The notes beneath the pieces are model-generated. The model ran no database searches. It had not been told where the DNA came from and saw only the letters and a program-made list of their open reading frames with translations. This document shows positions 6,274 to 43,253 of a stretch of DNA of 64,000 nt, in pieces. Both the position numbers and the translations under genes were made by a program. Position 1 is the first letter of the stretch, and every line of letters starts with the position of its first letter. The DNA comes from Ectothiorhodospiraceae bacterium 2226 (GTDB lineage: Bacteria > Pseudomonadota > Gammaproteobacteria > GCA-013348725): the NCBI GenBank assembly GCA_013348725.1, contig CP054689.1, forward strand, positions 298,501-362,500, given 5' to 3'.

Positions 6274-8634
6274 TCATGCTCCGGGGCTGACCTCCACATC
6301 CAGTACCCCGATGTAGCCGGCGCCCTGCGGAAGCGTCGGCACCCACACGCAGTCGTCGGGCACGCGCGCGTCGATCACCAGCGGCAAGGTCACGCTGTAA
6401 TCGCCGCCGCGCAGCACCACCGAGCCCGCACCGGAGACGTGCGCCTTGGCGGCCGTCGCTTCGTTCACGAGCGCGCGCACACTCTGGGCATCTTCGGTTT
6501 GCTGCAGTGCCCCGGCACGACGCACAAGCGGATCGACGGCATAGATGGATGCCTCCGCCATCAGCGACGCACCCGCCGAACTCGATGCCGCGGGCTCCAC
6601 CCACTGCCAAGCCGGCGTCTCCAACTGCGTGGGAACCTGAGCCCGCAATTCGTCGCGCACCTCTTCCGAACTCAGATACTCAAAGCCAGGGAGGTTGAGC
6701 AGGTTGCCCAACACGCGCAGCACTTTCCAGGCGGGACGTGCGTCGCCGAGCGGCGCCCCCGCGCCACCGAAACTCTGCCAGCGGCCTTCGGCGTTGACGA
6801 AGGTACCCGAGGTCTCGGCGAAGGCACCGATAGGCAGCAGCACGTCGGCGTAACTGCGCATGGTATCCGTGACGTACGCGCTGAGCGCGACTACGAACTC
6901 GGCCGCCAGCAAGGTCTCCAGCGTGCGCCGCGGGGCCGCGCAGTCGTACTCTGGCTCGATGCCCATCAGCACGTACCCCTTGAGACCGTCGGCGACCATC
7001 GCCGCGGTGTCCCGGCCCGCCTTGGGCGCGGCGGCGCCGCCGGCCACGCGATGCGGAACCGCGCCGGCTAGCCAGGCACCCGCCGCATTGCCGCCTTCGG
7101 TCAACTGGCCGAAGGTCGCCCCACTCATGCGCGCCACCGCGTCGGCAAGCATGCGCAGTTCCGCGTACCGCGGATGGGCGTGGGCCACATTGCCCAGCAG
7201 CACCACGGCCTTGGCGCCCTCGCTGAGTTGCTCGGCGACCGCGCGCTGCGCGGCGTCGGCCTGCACGCCGTCCAGGTGCTTGGCCAGACCCTCGGGGGCC
7301 GCACGACCGGCATCGAGCAGCGCCTTGGCCACGCCCGCCAAAGCGTCGACCATCTGATGCGGATGGACGACCAACTTATGGGCCAACGGAAAGCGGAAGT
7401 CATAGTCGACCGGGTTGAGCACGCTGATCCGCGCGCCTTGATTGACCGCGGCCTTGCGCAGGCGATGCGCGGCAATGGGCTGGTCCTTGCGGATGTTCGA
7501 GCCCACCAGCAGCACCGTGTCGGCGCTCTCGAGGTCCTCGATGCTCACACCCAAACCGGGGTAAGCCGGCATCTGCCCCTGCGCACGGAAGTCGCTCTGA
7601 CGCAGACGATGGTCGATGTTATGGCTGCCCAGCGCACGCATGACGCGCTGGAGCAGGTACATCTCTTCAGTGGTGGCGCAAGGCGACATCAAGGCACCGA
7701 GCTGATCGGCCCCGTGCTCCTTGCGCACCCCCTCGAGCCCTTCCACCACGCGCTTGAGCGCGGTCTCCCAGTCCGTCTCCTGCCACTGGCCTGCCACCCT
7801 GACCATCGGCGTCTGCAAACGGTCTTCGGCGTACAGGCCGAGGTAGCTGAACCGGTCGCGATCGGAGATCCAGGTCTCATTGATGGACTCGTTCTCGCGC
7901 GGCAGCACGCGCATAACGCGCTGACCGCGGGTCTCGATGTGCAGATTCGAGCCAATGCAGTCGTGCGGCGCCACGCCGTCGTGACGGACCAACTCCCACG
8001 CGCGGGCCGAATACCGGAACGGTTTGGAGGTCAGTGCGCCGACCGGGCACAGGTCGATGACGTTACCGGACAGCTCCGAGGTGACACTCTTCTCAATGTA
8101 GGTGCCGATCTCCATGTGCTCGCCGCGCCCCGTGGCGCCGAGCTCCATGACGCCGGCGATCTCCTGCCCGAAGCGCACGCAGCGCGTGCAATGAATGCAG
8201 CGCGTCATGTCGGTGGAGATCAGCGGCCCGATGTTCTTGTCTTTGACGACGCGCTTCTTCTCTTGATAGCGCGAGATGTCCTCGCCGAAGCCCATGGCGA
8301 TGTCCTGCAGATCGCACTCGCCGCCCTGATCGCAGATCGGGCAGTCCAAGGGATGGTTGATCAGCAGGAACTCCATCACGCCGCGCTGGGCATCGAGCGC
8401 CTTGGGCGAGCGCGTAAAGATGCGCATGCCTTCGGTCACCGGCGTGGCACACGCCGGCAGCGGCTTGGCCGCCTTCTCGACTTCGACCAGGCACATACGA
8501 CAGTTCGCCGCCACGGACAGCTTCTTGTGGTAACAGAAGCGCGGGATGACGATACCGGCTTCGTCCGCCGCCTCGATGACCATTGCGCCATCGCGGGCTT
8601 GAATCGTTACGCCATTGATCTCGATGTTTACCAT
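6274..8634 (-). CDS. nuoG: NADH-quinone oxidoreductase subunit G
   Basis: 786 residues from the ATG at 8634 (MVNIEINGVTIQAR). The reading frame is open further upstream, but that stretch overlaps nuoF and has no family similarity. The N-terminus has the [2Fe-2S] cysteines C34, C45, C48 and C62. Next come the H/C cluster in NHPLDCPICDQGGECD and a [4Fe-4S] region with RCIHCTRCVRFG and LCPVGALTSK. The rest is the molybdopterin-oxidoreductase fold (EDRLQTPMVR onward), which in complex I is structural. It conducts electrons along the peripheral arm. It follows nuoF with a 40-base gap. Confidence 0.97.
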   Translation of the reverse strand: MVNIEINGVTIQARDGAMVIEAADEAGIVIPRFCYHKKLSVAANCRMCLVEVEKAAKPLPACATPVTEGMRIFTRSPKALDAQRGVMEFLLINHPLDCPICDQGGECDLQDIAMGFGEDISRYQEKKRVVKDKNIGPLISTDMTRCIHCTRCVRFGQEIAGVMELGATGRGEHMEIGTYIEKSVTSELSGNVIDLCPVGALTSKPFRYSARAWELVRHDGVAPHDCIGSNLHIETRGQRVMRVLPRENESINETWISDRDRFSYLGLYAEDRLQTPMVRVAGQWQETDWETALKRVVEGLEGVRKEHGADQLGALMSPCATTEEMYLLQRVMRALGSHNIDHRLRQSDFRAQGQMPAYPGLGVSIEDLESADTVLLVGSNIRKDQPIAAHRLRKAAVNQGARISVLNPVDYDFRFPLAHKLVVHPHQMVDALAGVAKALLDAGRAAPEGLAKHLDGVQADAAQRAVAEQLSEGAKAVVLLGNVAHAHPRYAELRMLADAVARMSGATFGQLTEGGNAAGAWLAGAVPHRVAGGAAAPKAGRDTAAMVADGLKGYVLMGIEPEYDCAAPRRTLETLLAAEFVVALSAYVTDTMRSYADVLLPIGAFAETSGTFVNAEGRWQSFGGAGAPLGDARPAWKVLRVLGNLLNLPGFEYLSSEEVRDELRAQVPTQLETPAWQWVEPAASSSAGASLMAEASIYAVDPLVRRAGALQQTEDAQSVRALVNEATAAKAHVSGAGSVVLRGGDYSVTLPLVIDARVPDDCVWVPTLPQGAGYIGVLDVEVSPGA

Positions 8635-38252: not shown

Positions 38253-38629
38253 GGGGGCGACATGGTTTCGACGTGGGTATGAAACTTTAGGTGCATGCCG
38301 AGGTGCAGATCACCTCGTAAAACAATCTGCAACCAACATAGTTGCCAACGACGACAACTACGCTCTAGCGGCTTAAGCCCCGCTAGCCCTTGACCGAGGC
38401 CGTGCTTGTGCGCTCGGGGTCTGTGTAAGCAGGCCGCTCAAGGGTCGACTCTCACAAGATCGCGACCGAGGCTCGCCTGGGGCCAAAGCGCTAAAACCCA
38501 ACCGGGATCGCCGTCTGCACGCCCTGCCGGTCGGGCAGCAGCCGGTTAAACACAATAGATCCGGCTAAGCATGTAGATCCGACAGCGTAGGACTCACGGA
38601 CGCGGGTTCGATTCCCGCCGCCTCCACCA
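38253..38629 (+). ncRNA. ssrA: Transfer-messenger RNA (tmRNA)
   Basis: About 377 bases from GGGGGCGACATGG (38253) to an encoded CCA (38627-38629). The acceptor stem pairs GGGGGCG with CGCCTCC. The 5' part has the conserved GTTTCGACG; the 3' part has the T-arm GGGTTCGATTCCC. The tag frame at 38344-38376 reads ANDDNYALAA then TAA, ending in the usual degradation signal ALAA. Pseudoknot-like repeats fill the middle. tmRNA with SmpB rescues stalled ribosomes. The 3' end is a common integration site, and accessory genes follow. Confidence 0.98.
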
Positions 38630-38636
38630 ATACTGA

Positions 38637-38669
38637 AGCCCCAACTGTTATCAGTTGGGGCTTTTTCTT
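38637..38669 (+). terminator. Intrinsic terminator of ssrA
   Basis: AGCCCCAACTG (38637-38647) and CAGTTGGGGCT (38652-38662) form a perfect 11-bp stem with loop TTAT, followed by TTTTTCTT. This is a canonical rho-independent terminator on the plus strand, 8 bases after the CCA. Confidence 0.95.
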
Positions 38670-38981
38670 GTCTGTTTGCGCCAGTTCCCGCGTGTTATTG
38701 GGGGTTCCTGCGAACGCCTGCGGACTTTGCCAGCCGCCCGAATTGGCCGTTCCCGGCCACATTCCACTCTCTCCTGGCCATTCCTCGCTCCGGCCTCGCT
38801 CCCTGGAACTGACCCGAAGTCCGCAAAGGCCGCAACGAGGAGCCATACAGATCCACGGGTTACGCGCGGACAAATCGAGCGGTTGGATTGCAGCATTGGC
38901 AGGCGGAGGGAACAGGATCGTCGGGCAAGGAACTGGACATTTGGCCCGGTCGGGAACTTGCGGGCCGGGTTCCAGGGGTTT
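38670..38981. other. Gene-free stretch between ssrA and the AbiE pair
   Basis: About 310 bases. Short open frames here, including one running back through the tmRNA on the minus strand, look spurious. I see no second copy of the tmRNA 3' end and no integrase gene. It may be the scar of an integrated element. Confidence 0.5.
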
Positions 38982-39833
38982 TCAAGCGGCGGCTCGGTTC
39001 AACGCCGCTCCCAAGGCGACCCGCAGCCGATCCACGATGGTGGGCAAGGGTTCAAGAGCAAGCTCGTTCTTCTTGATGAACGCCTGCCACAGAGCCTGCC
39101 GCGAGGGATCGTGCGCGAACTCATCCGTCAGGCCGACCGGCAACCCGGCGGGCACCGCCATGCCGCGCCGCTCGAAGGTGGCCTTGATCGCTTGGGCCAG
39201 CAGATCGGTGTCCAGGGTTTCGCGATCCAGCAACACGGACAGATCGAGGTAATCCTTCAACCTGCTGTTGGTCATACCCAGCAGCGCGATGGCGTGGAGT
39301 TTCTCCGCGACGACGGTGTAAACGGGATAGGTGCGCAAACGAGGCGCTGGCAGGTCGGCCAGCAGCACCGGATAGGTCGCATCGACGGGGCCAGGCGTCA
39401 CGGCATCTCGGAAGCCGATGTCGATCTGTGTCTTGCAGCGTGCCTTGGCCAGCTCGCCACTGATGAAGATGCGCGCCCCGGCATATCCGGGGTCCTTGCG
39501 GATTTCCTCGGCGGCGACCGAGGCCGGGTCGAACACGATGCCGTCGTCTACCGCGACGCTGGCGATGTCGCGGAAGGTCTGAGCCACGGATTTCAGATCG
39601 CTCGCGCCGAAGCCAAGCAGGTCGGCGTCGCGCGTGGTCCGGTGCGGCATGTCGTACCAGAGCGTGAACAGCAACGCGCCCTTGAGCAGAAAATGATCCG
39701 CGTGCTCGGACTGGCTCAGACGGTAGAGGATTCGCTCCAGCGCGAAACGCACCAACACCTGGTTGAAGTCCACGCCCTGCGCCTTGGCGACGTTGAGCAA
39801 GCGGGCGCGCACGGAGGCCGCGACGTTATTCAT
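38982..39833 (-). CDS. abiEii: AbiEii-type nucleotidyltransferase toxin
   Basis: 283 residues. It is the toxin of a type IV toxin-antitoxin / abortive-infection pair of the AbiEii/AbiGii family, which modifies RNA with nucleotides. Motif I is in LLKGALLFTLWYD with RTTRDADLLGFG (Asp69, Asp71). CKTQIDIGFRD supplies the next acidic residue, VVAEKLHAI the lysine, and NSRLKDYLDLSVLL the fourth motif. All appear intact, so it should be active. The ATG at 39833 overlaps the antitoxin stop by 4 bases (ATGA). It sits next to ssrA in an accessory strip. Confidence 0.9.
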   Translation of the reverse strand: MNNVAASVRARLLNVAKAQGVDFNQVLVRFALERILYRLSQSEHADHFLLKGALLFTLWYDMPHRTTRDADLLGFGASDLKSVAQTFRDIASVAVDDGIVFDPASVAAEEIRKDPGYAGARIFISGELAKARCKTQIDIGFRDAVTPGPVDATYPVLLADLPAPRLRTYPVYTVVAEKLHAIALLGMTNSRLKDYLDLSVLLDRETLDTDLLAQAIKATFERRGMAVPAGLPVGLTDEFAHDPSRQALWQAFIKKNELALEPLPTIVDRLRVALGAALNRAAA

Positions 39834-40435
39834 TCAATGGCCTCCAGGTAGGGGCGCATCACGTTGGCCACGCGGCAGATCTTCGCGTAGCGCCACAGAT
39901 CGTCCGCCGTTGCCTTGCGCTTGGCGCGCGCGTCCTTCAGCGCCTCCAGGGCCACGTCCAGACCGATCTTGTTGCGGTGCTTGAAGCAGTCCACGACCGT
40001 CTTGGCCGCGCCGTACACGCGCAGCGTCACACCGTCGCGCAGGTGCTCCTCGATGCCCGTCGTGTAGACGTCGCCCGTCATCTGAACCATCTTGATCGGC
40101 GGGTAGTCAATGCGCGGTACATGGCTGCCGCGCGCCATGGCGATCCAAATCTGACGCGGCAGCTGGGTAGTCAGTTCGTGGAATTGCAGCGCGGTCAGCA
40201 GGCAGAACACGGCCTGGGGTACTTTGGTGGCGACGGTCGCGAGACCTTCGTGCTCCGACCCCGGATGACTGGGCAGGCGGTAGAGACCGCGACCGACCTT
40301 GTCCAGCAGGCCAGCGGCCGTCAGGCGCGTCAGAACGACCCGGGGTGCGTCGATGGCGTCCAGGTCGCTGGCGCGCAGCAGCCCCTTCTGGCGGGCCAGA
40401 TCGAGGACGCGCTGGGTGTGGGTGTCGGCAGGCAT
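39830..40435 (-). CDS. abiEi: AbiEi-type antitoxin/transcriptional regulator
   Basis: 201 residues. An N-terminal winged helix (QKGLLRASDLDAIDAPRVVL and DKVGRGLYRLPSHPG) is followed by the AbiEi body: PQAVFCLLTALQFHELTTQLP, VTLRVYGAAKTVVDCFKHRN and VALEALKDARAK. Family members neutralise AbiEii without direct contact and repress their own promoter. The start at 40435 gives MPADTHTQRVLD, without a clear ribosome-binding site. A 6-bp inverted repeat lies just upstream. Confidence 0.9.
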   Translation of the reverse strand: MPADTHTQRVLDLARQKGLLRASDLDAIDAPRVVLTRLTAAGLLDKVGRGLYRLPSHPGSEHEGLATVATKVPQAVFCLLTALQFHELTTQLPRQIWIAMARGSHVPRIDYPPIKMVQMTGDVYTTGIEEHLRDGVTLRVYGAAKTVVDCFKHRNKIGLDVALEALKDARAKRKATADDLWRYAKICRVANVMRPYLEAIE

Positions 40436-40456
40436 GGTGGGAGTATGTTCCGTTTA

Positions 40457-40483
40457 TTCGTCGACTGCAATCTTTTTGACGAA
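40457..40483 (-). promoter_or_regulatory. Possible AbiEi operator (inverted repeat)
   Basis: TTCGTC (40457-40462) and GACGAA (40478-40483) are inverted repeats 15 bases apart, centred about 35 bases upstream of the abiEi start. AbiEi proteins bind inverted repeats in their own promoters, which makes this a candidate; it was not compared with a known site. Confidence 0.4.
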
Positions 40484-40568
40484 GAATAGGCACAAGCCTG
40501 TGCCATCTGCGCTGACAGACACCGCTGCGGCGCTTATCGCCCCGAGGTCAGCCTCAACAGATGCCACC

Positions 40569-40982
40569 TCAAAGCCCAGCCCGCTCCCGCTGCTCATCCC
40601 ACAGCGCCGGCGGGTCCACCGCCAAGTCGAAAAGCGTGACGTGATTCGGCAGCGTATCGTCCAGGATCGCGGCCACGTTGTACGGCGCCAGCGTGTGAGG
40701 TTGACCATCCGACTCACGTAGCTGTTGTCGATCCCCTCCCGCGCGGCGATCCCCTTCAGTGACTTCGCTTCCCCAGACTCCCGCATGGCCAGCCAGCGAT
40801 GCCCCTTGCCCGCGCCAACTGGAGCGGCGTCGGTGTCACAACCCACCGGGACCGGTTCCGCCGTTCGGCAGCGTGACCAGCTTGCCCCCGCTGCGTCGTT
40901 TGATCTGGATCGGCACCGACAGGGTCAGCCGGCCTTCGCTCGTCTGCAGAATGTCCGGCTCGCCGGCTTTCTGGACGCGCAT
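40569..40982 (-). pseudogene. Frameshifted recombinase-associated helix-turn-helix gene
   Basis: Three successive frames together resemble one small protein family seen beside site-specific recombinases. Piece 1 (40982-40836, 48 codons) has LTLSVPIQIKRRSGGKLVTL and then stops. Piece 2, in another frame, has HRWLAMRESGEAKSLKGIAA and NSYVSRMVNL. Piece 3, in a third frame, has LAPYNVAAILDDTLPNHVTL and PPALWDEQRERAGL before its stop. At least two frame changes are needed, so the gene is dead. It marks old mobile DNA next to the AbiE pair. The family recognition is from memory of the motifs. Confidence 0.7.
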
Positions 40983-41069
40983 GTCGTTGCGGACTCAATC
41001 CCTGGAGTCCGCCGCTTCGCGGCCAGCGCGGGCATCCCCGTCTGAACCGCCCCGCAACCCTACCGTCCC

Positions 41070-41092
41070 GAACCCGCCCGCGTGGCGGGTTC
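41070..41092 (+). repeat. 9-bp hairpin before the prophage-type gene
   Basis: GAACCCGCC (41070-41078) pairs with GGCGGGTTC (41084-41092) around a 5-base loop, followed by GTCGTTTC. It lies 20 bases before the ATG at 41113 and may be a terminator of whatever preceded this gene. Confidence 0.5.
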
Positions 41093-41112
41093 GTCGTTTC
41101 TGGAGACCGCCG

Positions 41113-41412
41113 ATGATCGAAGTCCCCAAACCCGCCGTCGTCGAGAACATGGTCCTGCTGCGTCGCGAGGACTTCGAGGAGCTGCTCGACTGCGCCGCCG
41201 AACACGGCGCCGAACGCTGTCTCGCCCACCTCGGCCTCGAGAACGGCCACGCCGCCCGCGACATCCGCGAGCTGCGCGACCTCCTCGACGCTTGGCGCGA
41301 CGCCCGTCGCACCGCATGGCAAACCTTCGTGAAGGTACTGACCACGGGCCTGCTGGCCGCGCTGCTGGTCGGCGCCGCGATCAAGCTCAAGCTCATGGGA
41401 GGCGCGCAATGA
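41113..41412 (+). CDS. Small prophage-type membrane protein (DUF6127-like)
   Basis: 99 residues from the ATG at 41113 (MIEVPKPAVVENMVLLRRED). An acidic helical region (FEELLDCAAEHGAERCLAHLG and RELRDLLDAWRDARRTAWQT) precedes one C-terminal membrane helix (TTGLLAALLVGAAIKLKL). I recall this layout from phage-derived genes annotated DUF6127; the function is unknown. The stop overlaps the ATG of the next, broken gene (ATGA). It looks intact but sits in decayed mobile DNA. Confidence 0.65.
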   Translation: MIEVPKPAVVENMVLLRREDFEELLDCAAEHGAERCLAHLGLENGHAARDIRELRDLLDAWRDARRTAWQTFVKVLTTGLLAALLVGAAIKLKLMGGAQ

Positions 41413-41548
41413 TCGAGACCCTGCTCGGTGGCCTCCTGGGCGGGGCCTTACGCCTTGCTCCCGAAGCCTGAAGTGGTTCGACCGCAAGGGCGAGCGCGGC
41501 CACGAACTCGCGATGCAGGACAATGCGCTGGAGTTCGAGAAGCTGCGG
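41409..41548 (+). pseudogene. Frameshifted remnant of a phage-type partner gene
   Basis: Starts MIETLLGGLLGGALRLAPEA, then a stop at 41469-41471. Shifting frame by one base at that point continues LKWFDRKGERGHELAMQDN and ALEFEKLR, after which similarity to phage proteins of this kind ends. A one-base deletion and a 3' truncation would explain it. It is coupled by ATGA to the preceding membrane-protein gene, as expected for a former phage operon. Confidence 0.65.
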
Positions 41549-41602
41549 TATCGCGCACGTTCAACGGTCGTTTGGCGCGGGCTGCCGCCCCACCACCAAT
41601 AC

Positions 41603-41626
41603 AAGGGCTGCCTCGTCAGCCCTTTT
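41603..41626 (+). terminator. Candidate intrinsic terminator
   Basis: AAGGGCTG (41603-41610) pairs with CAGCCCTT (41617-41624) around a 6-base loop, with two more T residues after the stem. It would end transcription from the prophage remnant. Confidence 0.55.
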
Positions 41627-41648
41627 CCATTTCCGGGGGAATCAAGAA

Positions 41649-41743
41649 CCCGCGGAGCGGGGTCGAGCAGGCACCGGAAGGTGCCGCAGAACGCCGTCGC
41701 TCCGCGACGGCCGTCCCCACAGGCGTGAGGCCGCCGCGCGGCC
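41649..41743. repeat. Cluster of four short-loop hairpins
   Basis: Four consecutive perfect inverted repeats with 3-4 base loops: CCCGC/GCGGG (41649-41661), GGCACC/GGTGCC with loop GGAA (41670-41685), an 8-bp stem 41693-41700 with 41704-41711, and GGCCGC/GCGGCC (41729-41743). They lie between the terminator and the secreted-protein gene at 41850. No gene is seen in 41549-41849. Confidence 0.5.
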
Positions 41744-41849
41744 GATGCAGACATCGCCCCCGTTTCGGCGATACTTGGGAGTGGCCGGTGGGGCAAGCCA
41801 CCCCCGGCCGTTGGTGGCTGACAATTCCATGGATGGAGGACCGGCAACC

Positions 41850-43253
41850 ATGTTCAGCATGAGGCGCGCGCAGCACGTTATCTTTGCAGCCCTGCTGGCC
41901 GCAGCGGGCCAGGTTCTGGGGGAGCCGCTCGCGGCGGGCTCGACCGAGACGTTCAAGGACAACCTCGGAGCGGACGGCTTCGTCGTGCGCGAGGGGACGG
42001 CCGGGCGGTTCGACCCGGTGCGGGAGGCCTGCGAGGGCCGGTTTGCGTCCGCGCTGTACCTGAACCAGGCGGCGCCGTACATCACCTTCAACCCACCGCC
42101 GCTGGAAGAGCAGGCGCCGGTCTTCTTTCCGGCAGCGGAGTTCCGCCTGCGGCCGGACGAGGCGGTGGTGGTGATCGGCCGCACGCCGCCCGACACCGAG
42201 TACTTCAGCTATCAGCCCTACCTGTCGCACACCTTTCGCCCGGAGCACCCGGAGGAGCCACTGCGCGGCCTGAACAGCGTGGGCGACACGATCAACATCA
42301 GCACCATAGAGACCGGCGGCGACGAGCCCTTCGAGCGCGAGGTGGTACTGATCTTCACGCCGGACCAGAACACCGAGCAGCGGGTGCGCAGCGCGCTGGA
42401 GGCGGCCGGCTATCCGGGTGAGATCATCAACACGCTGGTCATCCCCGACCCCATGGTGACGCTCGGCGTGGACGAGGCCACCGATTCCTTCGTGCTGCTG
42501 CATCGCATGAAGCAGTTCACCGACCCGGAGGCCGGCGACGCCTTCCTCAACGAGCCACCCATGGCGGTGTTCCGCGTGACGCCCGAGGAGGCGACGGAGT
42601 CCGACCCATTTCCCGTGCCGCGGCTGCGGGTGCGCGGTACGGGCCAGACCGAGTTCGACCTGACCCCCGAGCTCGCCCGCCTGCGCCAAGCGGTGCTGGA
42701 TGCCAACCCGGGCATGGCGGTCACCGAGTACGAGACCCGGTCGATCGGTTATGAGGGCTTCGATCAGCGGCCCGTCAACGCCTGGGGCGACACGCGCGAC
42801 ACTACCCAGCTGGGTATGGGGTTCCTGCCGGACTTCGACATGCAGCACGCGATGACGTTGGCTGAGGACGAGTACCTGATCGCGTACGGGGTGAACCACG
42901 TCGCCACCGGCAAGTCCACCTCGATGAGCATCAACGTCTATGCCAGTGAGACGCTCAAAATGGCGGTCGGGCACGCTTTCGTCGATCAACTGGAGAACAG
43001 CGCCCAGACCCTCGCGGGCTTTACCGGACCGTCCGCCGATCAGATGTACGCCTACAAGATCGCCCGCCAGTGCCACGGGGAGCCCTATTGCCTGGAGCTC
43101 GCCGCGCCCCCCGACTGTCCCGTGCTGCAACTGGACGACGACACGCAGCTCGGCATCGGGATACGCGCCTATCTGGAGGACGAGACCGCGGTGGGACCGG
43201 CGGTGTCGGAGATCCTTTACGATCGGGTGATCAAGTTCTCGCCACGAGACTAG
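41850..43253 (+). CDS. Secreted protein of unknown function, 467 residues
   Basis: Start ATG at 41850 (MFSMRRAQHVIFAALLAAAG) with GGAGG 11 bases upstream. A signal peptide of about 24 residues predicts export. The body has repeated acidic segments and distinctive blocks: TEYFSYQPYLSHTFRP, LNSVGDTINISTIETGG, EIINTLVIPDPMVTLGVDEA, RVRGTGQTEFDL, AWGDTRDTTQLGMG, YLIAYGVNHVATGKSTSMS and the cysteine pair CHGEPYCLEL. I recall similar unnamed proteins in distant bacteria, but no defined family or active site. It is convergent with the ABC exporter operon and next to decayed mobile DNA. Confidence 0.85.
   Translation: MFSMRRAQHVIFAALLAAAGQVLGEPLAAGSTETFKDNLGADGFVVREGTAGRFDPVREACEGRFASALYLNQAAPYITFNPPPLEEQAPVFFPAAEFRLRPDEAVVVIGRTPPDTEYFSYQPYLSHTFRPEHPEEPLRGLNSVGDTINISTIETGGDEPFEREVVLIFTPDQNTEQRVRSALEAAGYPGEIINTLVIPDPMVTLGVDEATDSFVLLHRMKQFTDPEAGDAFLNEPPMAVFRVTPEEATESDPFPVPRLRVRGTGQTEFDLTPELARLRQAVLDANPGMAVTEYETRSIGYEGFDQRPVNAWGDTRDTTQLGMGFLPDFDMQHAMTLAEDEYLIAYGVNHVATGKSTSMSINVYASETLKMAVGHAFVDQLENSAQTLAGFTGPSADQMYAYKIARQCHGEPYCLELAAPPDCPVLQLDDDTQLGIGIRAYLEDETAVGPAVSEILYDRVIKFSPRD

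Follow-up and report, generated by a model that had tools for sequence, protein, structure and literature searches.

Features of the locus downstream of ssrA

We examined a 64,000-nucleotide (nt) stretch of the genome of Ectothiorhodospiraceae bacterium 2226 (contig CP054689.1, positions 298,501 to 362,500), hereafter the window, in whose own coordinates all positions are given. The locus of interest comprises ssrA, the gene for transfer-messenger RNA (tmRNA), followed by a pair of AbiE toxin-antitoxin genes and by broken genes of a mobile element. It appears very probable that the strip behind ssrA is a 2,969-bp, twice-deleted relic of a serine-recombinase prophage that had integrated at the ssrA 3' end, with the AbiE pair as its surviving cargo. 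The features of the strip are as follows.

38253-38629, plus strand: ssrA (tmRNA), intact, its 3' end being the target site (ARAGORN; Rfam, 215 bits)
38624-38633, plus strand: left attachment core, CCACCAATAC
38630-38903, plus strand: conserved mobile-element end (the S end), 274 nt directly 3' of ssrA, carrying its own terminator-like hairpin
38982-39833, minus strand: abiEii, nucleotidyltransferase-type toxin of 283 amino acids (aa), intact (Pfam AbiEii, 2.4e-47; PADLOC AbiEii, 7.1e-99)
39830-40435, minus strand: abiEi, antitoxin and putative autorepressor of 201 aa, intact (AbiEi_4, 1.1e-9; PADLOC AbiEi, 4.3e-93)
40436-40505, minus strand: abiE upstream region, a probable AbiEi operator, in which the inverted repeats TGTKCC..GGAACA and TTCGTC..GACGAA are nested
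40569-40986, minus strand: pseudogene of a 143-aa recombinase accessory protein, with three indels (1, 1 and 7 nt) and its start lost
41113-41412, plus strand: DUF6127, a phage gene with a 99-aa open frame that belongs to the far end of the prophage (Pfam, 4.5e-28)
41409-41547, plus strand: N-terminal piece of the following phage gene (PHROG 6637), with a frameshift
41559-41602, plus strand: right element end, with the core CCACCAATAC at 41593-41602, matching two junctions in genome G135
41603-41624, plus strand: terminator-like hairpin that differs from the element hairpin

An initial annotation had described a decayed island at the ssrA 3' end that kept an intact AbiEi/AbiEii pair with an ATGA overlap, followed by broken mobile-element genes. 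This description holds: both genes and their overlap were found 352 bp past ssrA, and behind them lie the accessory pseudogene (40569-40986) and the phage gene cut at 41547. The same annotation reported neither an integrase nor a repeat of the tmRNA end within the strip, and proposed that either the far attachment site had decayed or only a remnant was left. It was noted that CCACCAATAC does recur, at 41593-41602, within a far end that is still present (41559-41602) and is followed by what is probably the native ssrA terminator (41603-41624), now displaced. A remnant of the integration module also persists, the recombinase gene itself being gone, and the suggestion of a remnant fits the two large deletions described below.

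Both ends of the element

The ssrA gene is the sole tmRNA gene above cut-off in this single-contig 2.96-Mb genome. The S end behind it begins with the terminator-like hairpin (38635-38664) and resembles the region 3' of ssrA in a genome of another family (G020, locus L011; 80% over 344 nt) as well as a stretch beside another AbiE pair (locus L073; 76%). The genes after the S-like end in G020 read as mercury genes, judged from the sequence and without a database match. The hairpin core CCCAACYGTTNTCRGTTGGG was found in one copy each in 10 of 369 genomes of the class, our own included, and the reversed pattern in none of the 369. In seven of these ten genomes the hairpin starts 10 nt past the last base (CCA) of an intact RNA gene, namely six tmRNA genes (the present one included) and one tRNA-Phe gene; in the other three the preceding sequence is more or less similar to the 3' end of an RNA gene. 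Identical hairpins stand 3' of tRNA-Ala in AbiE-bearing loci of other bacteria (L055, L056 and L082), a hairpin with one change stands 3' of tRNA-Phe in the AbiE-bearing locus L065, and close variants occur behind tRNA-Phe (L099) and tmRNA (L059).

At the opposite end, 38641-42000 contains a single match to the ssrA end at 12 of 13 positions, and none of 400 mononucleotide shuffles has one. Positions 41570-41601 agree at 31 of 32 positions with a junction in the complete genome G135, and a second G135 junction is 80% identical to the right end over 49 nt. Both junctions then continue into the element hairpin end or a close variant of it, the layout expected for tandem elements. We accept the far repeat of the ssrA end because of the 12/13 match together with these junctions. 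Searches for a longer repeat with 25-nt and 17-nt patterns of the ssrA end (at most three mismatches) returned ssrA and two unrelated three-mismatch matches in the window, and a 20-nt pattern had two three-mismatch matches elsewhere in the genome. The distance from core to core, 2,969 bp, gives the length of the island. The island-free allele would be expected to carry ssrA followed by AAGGGCTGCC, reading TCCACCAATACAAGGGCTGCC across the empty site.

The G135 stretch looks like a tandem array of such elements. Its two right-end/left-end junctions lie on the reverse strand of locus L146 at 849-960 and 7583-7677, with an AbiE pair just past the second, and no intact tmRNA was seen in the 30 kb of G135 examined.

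Intact relatives and the lost middle

One intact relative is the IMG/VR contig IMGVR_UViG_3300020592_000079 (locus L161; L167 for the whole contig), which is 94.3% identical to 38597-40986 over 2,401 columns with a like gene order, and 75% identical to the DUF6127 stretch (41068-41547) over 481. It possesses an intact 143-aa accessory gene and an intact 476-aa recombinase (Resolvase, 8.8e-40; Recombinase, 1.9e-14), and further encodes DUF2924, Peptidase_M78, a Phage-tail_3 protein and DUF2793. The accessory pseudogene of the window is 88.5% identical to the intact gene at the DNA level and matches PHROG 14161, 'recombinase', at 3.4e-5.

A related prophage lies in the complete genome G357, where ssrA is followed by the S end, an acetyltransferase-type toxin-antitoxin cargo, the accessory gene, the recombinase and further genes. 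Among the 45 open reading frames (ORFs) scanned there against Pfam and PHROGs were a lambda-type portal, a gpA terminase, a head protease, tail proteins, a tape measure and a lysozyme. The DUF6127 gene lies on the same side of ssrA in both genomes, 44 kb beyond it in G357 and 2.5 kb beyond it in the window; the window copy is 74% identical to that of G357 at the DNA level and matches PHROG 10540 at 3.6e-44. Homology to two other prophages stops at the same point, 41547. The window thus retains both ends of such a prophage, whose middle has been lost.

The recombinase query had no match in the host genome (G000), the same query having matched 13 other genomes. No Phage_integrase gene lies on the island; both matches in the genome are at 1.60 and 2.75 Mb, more than 1.2 Mb from the window (0.30-0.36 Mb). 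As the genome encodes no such recombinase, the relic is unable to move by its own enzyme.

The course of events would most likely have begun with entry of the prophage into the ssrA 3' end, a large serine recombinase and its small accessory DNA-binding protein recombining at CCACCAATAC. The element would supply a terminator of its own and push that of ssrA to the far side, and ssrA would therefore have stayed functional; elements at ssrA often supply its terminator, as Williams reportedly described in 2003. The AbiE pair would have been cargo, placed in a slot with the ssrA-proximal end on one side and the recombinase module on the other. One deletion would then have taken out the recombinase together with almost every phage gene as far as the DUF6127 region, and a second the stretch from that region to the right attachment site. 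Within this account, the two ends, the family, the slot, the deletions and the intact state of AbiE are read from the sequence, and the identity of the integrating enzyme, the roles of the terminators, the toxin activity and the phage defense are deduced.

Recombinase distribution and RNA-gene targets

We assessed the distribution of the recombinase and found it in 13 of the 369 genomes (E <= 1e-100). In seven of the 13, an RNA gene faces the recombinase with its 3' end on the cargo side: tmRNA in G357, G199 and G276, tRNA-Phe in G133 and for one of the three G124 copies, and tRNA-Ser in G236 and G269. In G025 a tmRNA gene lies about 14 kb beyond the S end. Conversely, the recombinase was encoded on the stretches examined in six of the nine other genomes with the hairpin. 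The elements occupy the 3' ends of tmRNA, tRNA-Phe and tRNA-Ser genes, and perhaps those of tRNA-Ala genes too.

A 2014 database paper states, in the portion available, that serine integrases were not known to target tRNA genes, and the accessible text of a 2026 paper on integrase bioprospecting leaves this question unsettled (PMC12884075). Across the literature searched, a body that most subscription papers fall outside, the family was nowhere described as serine-recombinase elements at tRNA genes. It seems reasonably probable to us that a widespread family of prophages and islands in Gammaproteobacteria is represented here, with a large serine recombinase, a core of about 10 nt, insertion at tmRNA, tRNA-Phe and tRNA-Ser (perhaps tRNA-Ala) 3' ends, a terminator of its own, a cargo slot at the RNA-gene end and at least three captures of AbiE.

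Several observations weigh against the relic being what we propose. The common core is just 10 nt long, which is shorter than the usual repeats of tyrosine-integrase islands. No RNA gene was seen beside the recombinase in G025, G171, G312, G331, G250 and G049; some of these contigs end at that point, and G250 and G049 were viewed to 1.5 kb. The L161 contig is without an RNA gene, its S end being preceded by a partial sequence that resembles the end of ssrA. The stretch of G357 examined did not reveal the right end of its prophage, and no close relative with an empty site was encountered, the genome standing alone in its order among the genomes compared. Of the 32 Pfam families of G357, a tyrosine integrase may be among the seven outside the 25 listed.

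The last point bears on the possibility that the strip is a conventional tyrosine-integrase island at ssrA and that the serine recombinase is a bystander, such as an invertase or resolvase, of a prophage inside or beside it. We regard this as improbable. It would agree with the general rule, in the part of the source available, that integration at tRNA and tmRNA genes is usually the work of tyrosine integrases (PMC4383910), with an integrase-like ORF (P4-type, judged from its start) near AbiE in 4 of 80 genome loci, and with the three of nine other hairpin genomes that are without the recombinase in the stretch examined. However, in genomes of different families the recombinase and its accessory gene lie beside the S end both at tmRNA and at tRNA-Phe genes, as well as beside tRNA-Ser genes, and the 25 listed Pfam families of G357 contain Resolvase and Recombinase and not Phage_integrase.

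The AbiE pair

The two abiE genes form an operon with the antitoxin first and an ATGA start/stop overlap, lying on the strand opposite to ssrA and converging on it. The Pfam AbiEii domain is covered at positions 1-229 of 238, and AbiEii aligns to the solved AbiGII-type chain 9hlo_B (E 2.3e-27) with preservation of the DxD motif. The AbiEi_4 match of abiEi corresponds to an N-terminal winged helix; the NCBIfam AbiEi equivalog model scored far under its cut-off, at 15.1 of 150 bits. A search of the genome for AbiEii returned one match, the gene itself. The nested inverted repeats upstream recur 5' of abiEi in relatives, and the first 60 nt or so of the region were matched in many loci, the consensus of 71 sequences being weak; the region is a probable AbiEi operator. 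A plus-strand ORF across abiEii (38655-39851, 398 aa) had no Pfam match and was dropped.

The pair is an ordinary member of the AbiE type IV toxin-antitoxin family (DUF1814 nucleotidyltransferase), from which it shows no essential difference; what is particular is its position as cargo of an ssrA prophage relic. AbiEi would most likely repress the operon through the inverted repeats and counteract AbiEii, a putative nucleotidyltransferase that would halt growth upon phage infection. In the accessible parts of the sources, the toxins of AbiE systems are proposed to cause stasis through nucleotide transfer to tRNA, several members confer phage resistance (PMC7725324), and AbiE can stabilise an integrative and conjugative element (ICE; PMC11062541).

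We compared the pair with that of L161. The genes abiEii and abiEi are 98.4% and 98.3% identical with no indel in 1,454 nt, whereas the S end is 84.8% identical and the accessory stretch 88.5%, with three indels in 418 columns. The abiE genes differ by 13 synonymous changes over about 374 sites and 11 non-synonymous changes over about 1,077 sites, counts that are small. Because synonymous change is so low, the cassette seems to be of more recent common ancestry than its flanks, which points to recent cassette exchange, and the ratio of non-synonymous to synonymous change points to constraint; neither pattern proves defense. The initial annotation proposed that the pair was retained for phage defense, which may be so; an intact AbiE beside partly broken neighbours fits selection and also fits recent cassette exchange.

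That the pair is intact solely because it arrived or was replaced recently, with no selection at this locus, is a possibility that we entertain tentatively. It accounts for the gap between the identity of the abiE genes and that of the S end and the accessory pseudogene, and for the few synonymous changes; on the other hand, non-synonymous change per site is lower than synonymous change, and an indel-free 1,454 nt stands against three indels in the much shorter accessory stretch. Rather unlikely, in our assessment, is that AbiE had served the element, either through addiction or through binding of AbiEi close to the attachment site, and persists today without a role. A precedent exists in Streptococcus suis, where AbiE, like SezAT, stabilises an ICE and the oriT is bound by AbiEi, as reported in the available text (PMC11062541). 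The AbiE pair here does sit at the element end beside the attachment site, in a slot that also takes acetyltransferase-type toxin-antitoxin pairs. Yet AbiE has stayed intact although the relic, with no recombinase in the genome, cannot excise by itself, and Thoeris and McrBC-type genes, found in the slot as well, speak for defense rather than addiction.

The cargo slot and other AbiE contexts

The slot lies between the accessory gene and the hairpin. Where cargo is absent it spans 311 nt (G199 and L185) or 318 nt (L189 and L190), and elsewhere it extends over 1.1 to 8.6 kb. Its contents vary across relatives between several kinds of AbiE, acetyltransferase toxin-antitoxin genes, mercury genes, Thoeris and nothing. 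Nine of the 71 IMG/VR loci encoding the accessory protein possess AbiEii in the slot, three of the same kind as in the window (at 97, 59 and 57% identity), six of a second kind. AbiE was also found in the slot of G124 and G171 (about 60%) and beside the second element junction in G135. In the window and L161 the pair points the same way as the accessory gene, and in L172 and L177 it points the opposite way. Counted from kind and orientation, without a tree, the captures of AbiE would number at least three.

A set of 52 cargo ORFs (130 aa or longer), chosen manually in 32 loci and thus not random, with some ORFs and loci left out, gave 7 AbiEii, 6 AbiEi_4, 3 acetyltransferases and one each of ThsA, ThsB and McrBC by Pfam. 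PADLOC agreed with Pfam on AbiE.

It was further noted that AbiE is encountered at RNA-gene ends outside these prophages. Among 80 genome loci with close AbiEii relatives, nine had a tRNA or tmRNA gene no more than 2 kb past abiEii, its 3' end facing abiEii in all nine (1.6 expected from the RNA-gene density elsewhere in the same 80 loci; P 5e-5). Anything like the recombinase was encoded in 2 of the 80. Since the neighbouring genes in these nine loci are mixed, AbiE at RNA-gene ends appears to be broader than the prophage family. At ssrA of more distant genomes no AbiE was found in the 29 loci viewed (L009-L037; flanks of at most 1.5 kb). Named phages matched the AbiE pair in 16 of 50,697 records, and because all 16 are below 60% identity none is a close donor.

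In 11 of the 80 AbiE loci, a different serine-recombinase-like ORF with a small preceding protein lies directly behind abiEii (for example, L074:8917-11107).

Relation to known systems

P4-type and CP4-57-like elements use a tyrosine integrase. They share the ssrA target, and CP4-57 excision damages ssrA, according to the accessible text (PMC10107115). The ssrA-specific islands of Dehalococcoides, with the recombinase DsiB, are alike in having a serine recombinase module beside ssrA, a short repeat of the ssrA end and variable cargo, and differ in a 20-bp repeat and a second small recombinase, DsiA, with no phage structural genes noted in the portion available (PMC3146451). Unlike them, the present family consists of tailed prophages and is also found at tRNA genes. 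The core defense hotspot cDHS2 of Pseudomonas aeruginosa likewise gathers defense cargo beside ssrA; it is defined by host core genes rather than by one element, and its main text, where available, is without mention of AbiE (PMC10250203).

The nearest named recombinase is that of the Acidithiobacillus phage AcaML1, at 56% identity. A study of Methylococcus prophages places Bath-R1 at ssrA and KN2-R1 at tRNA-Phe and gives AcaML1 as the reference phage nearest to one cluster; the main text available makes no use of the word 'serine', and these prophages are likened to ours by description alone (PMC12924245).

We see the element family, rather than the AbiE pair, as the point of interest. If the family is as described, finders that rely on long tRNA fragments or on tyrosine integrases would miss such elements. 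A decayed island becomes a readable fossil whose ends, donor family and deletions can be named, and the slot in serine-recombinase prophages becomes a place for the systematic search of defense and toxin-antitoxin genes.

Additional observations at the borders

The first gene past the island (41847-43253, 468 aa) belongs to no NCBIfam or PHROGs family, nor to a Pfam family when scanned within a longer ORF. It cannot be used as an anchor for comparison because it had no match in the 368 other genomes of the class. At the opposite border, the minus-strand reading of the ssrA end (38565-38873) is an ORF ending ...VEAAGIEPASV...; ORFs that end in this manner are typical false genes over RNA 3' ends.

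Plasmids and phages were also considered as a source of the element end and set aside, the best matches spanning just the first 72 nt of the query. Matching plasmid records numbered 2,020 of 72,556, with 2,005 of these at 90-95% identity. Two records were inspected in context, one of them a contig from the phage collection, and in these the matched end stood beside sul1 and ISCR1 or a 'putative' transposase. The sul1/ISCR1 junction of pCTX-M3 (L132:3999-4051) carries an exact copy of 38628-38680, a 53-nt part of the element end, which is preceded there by CTCCACCA. ISCR1 may once have been adjacent to such an RNA-gene element.

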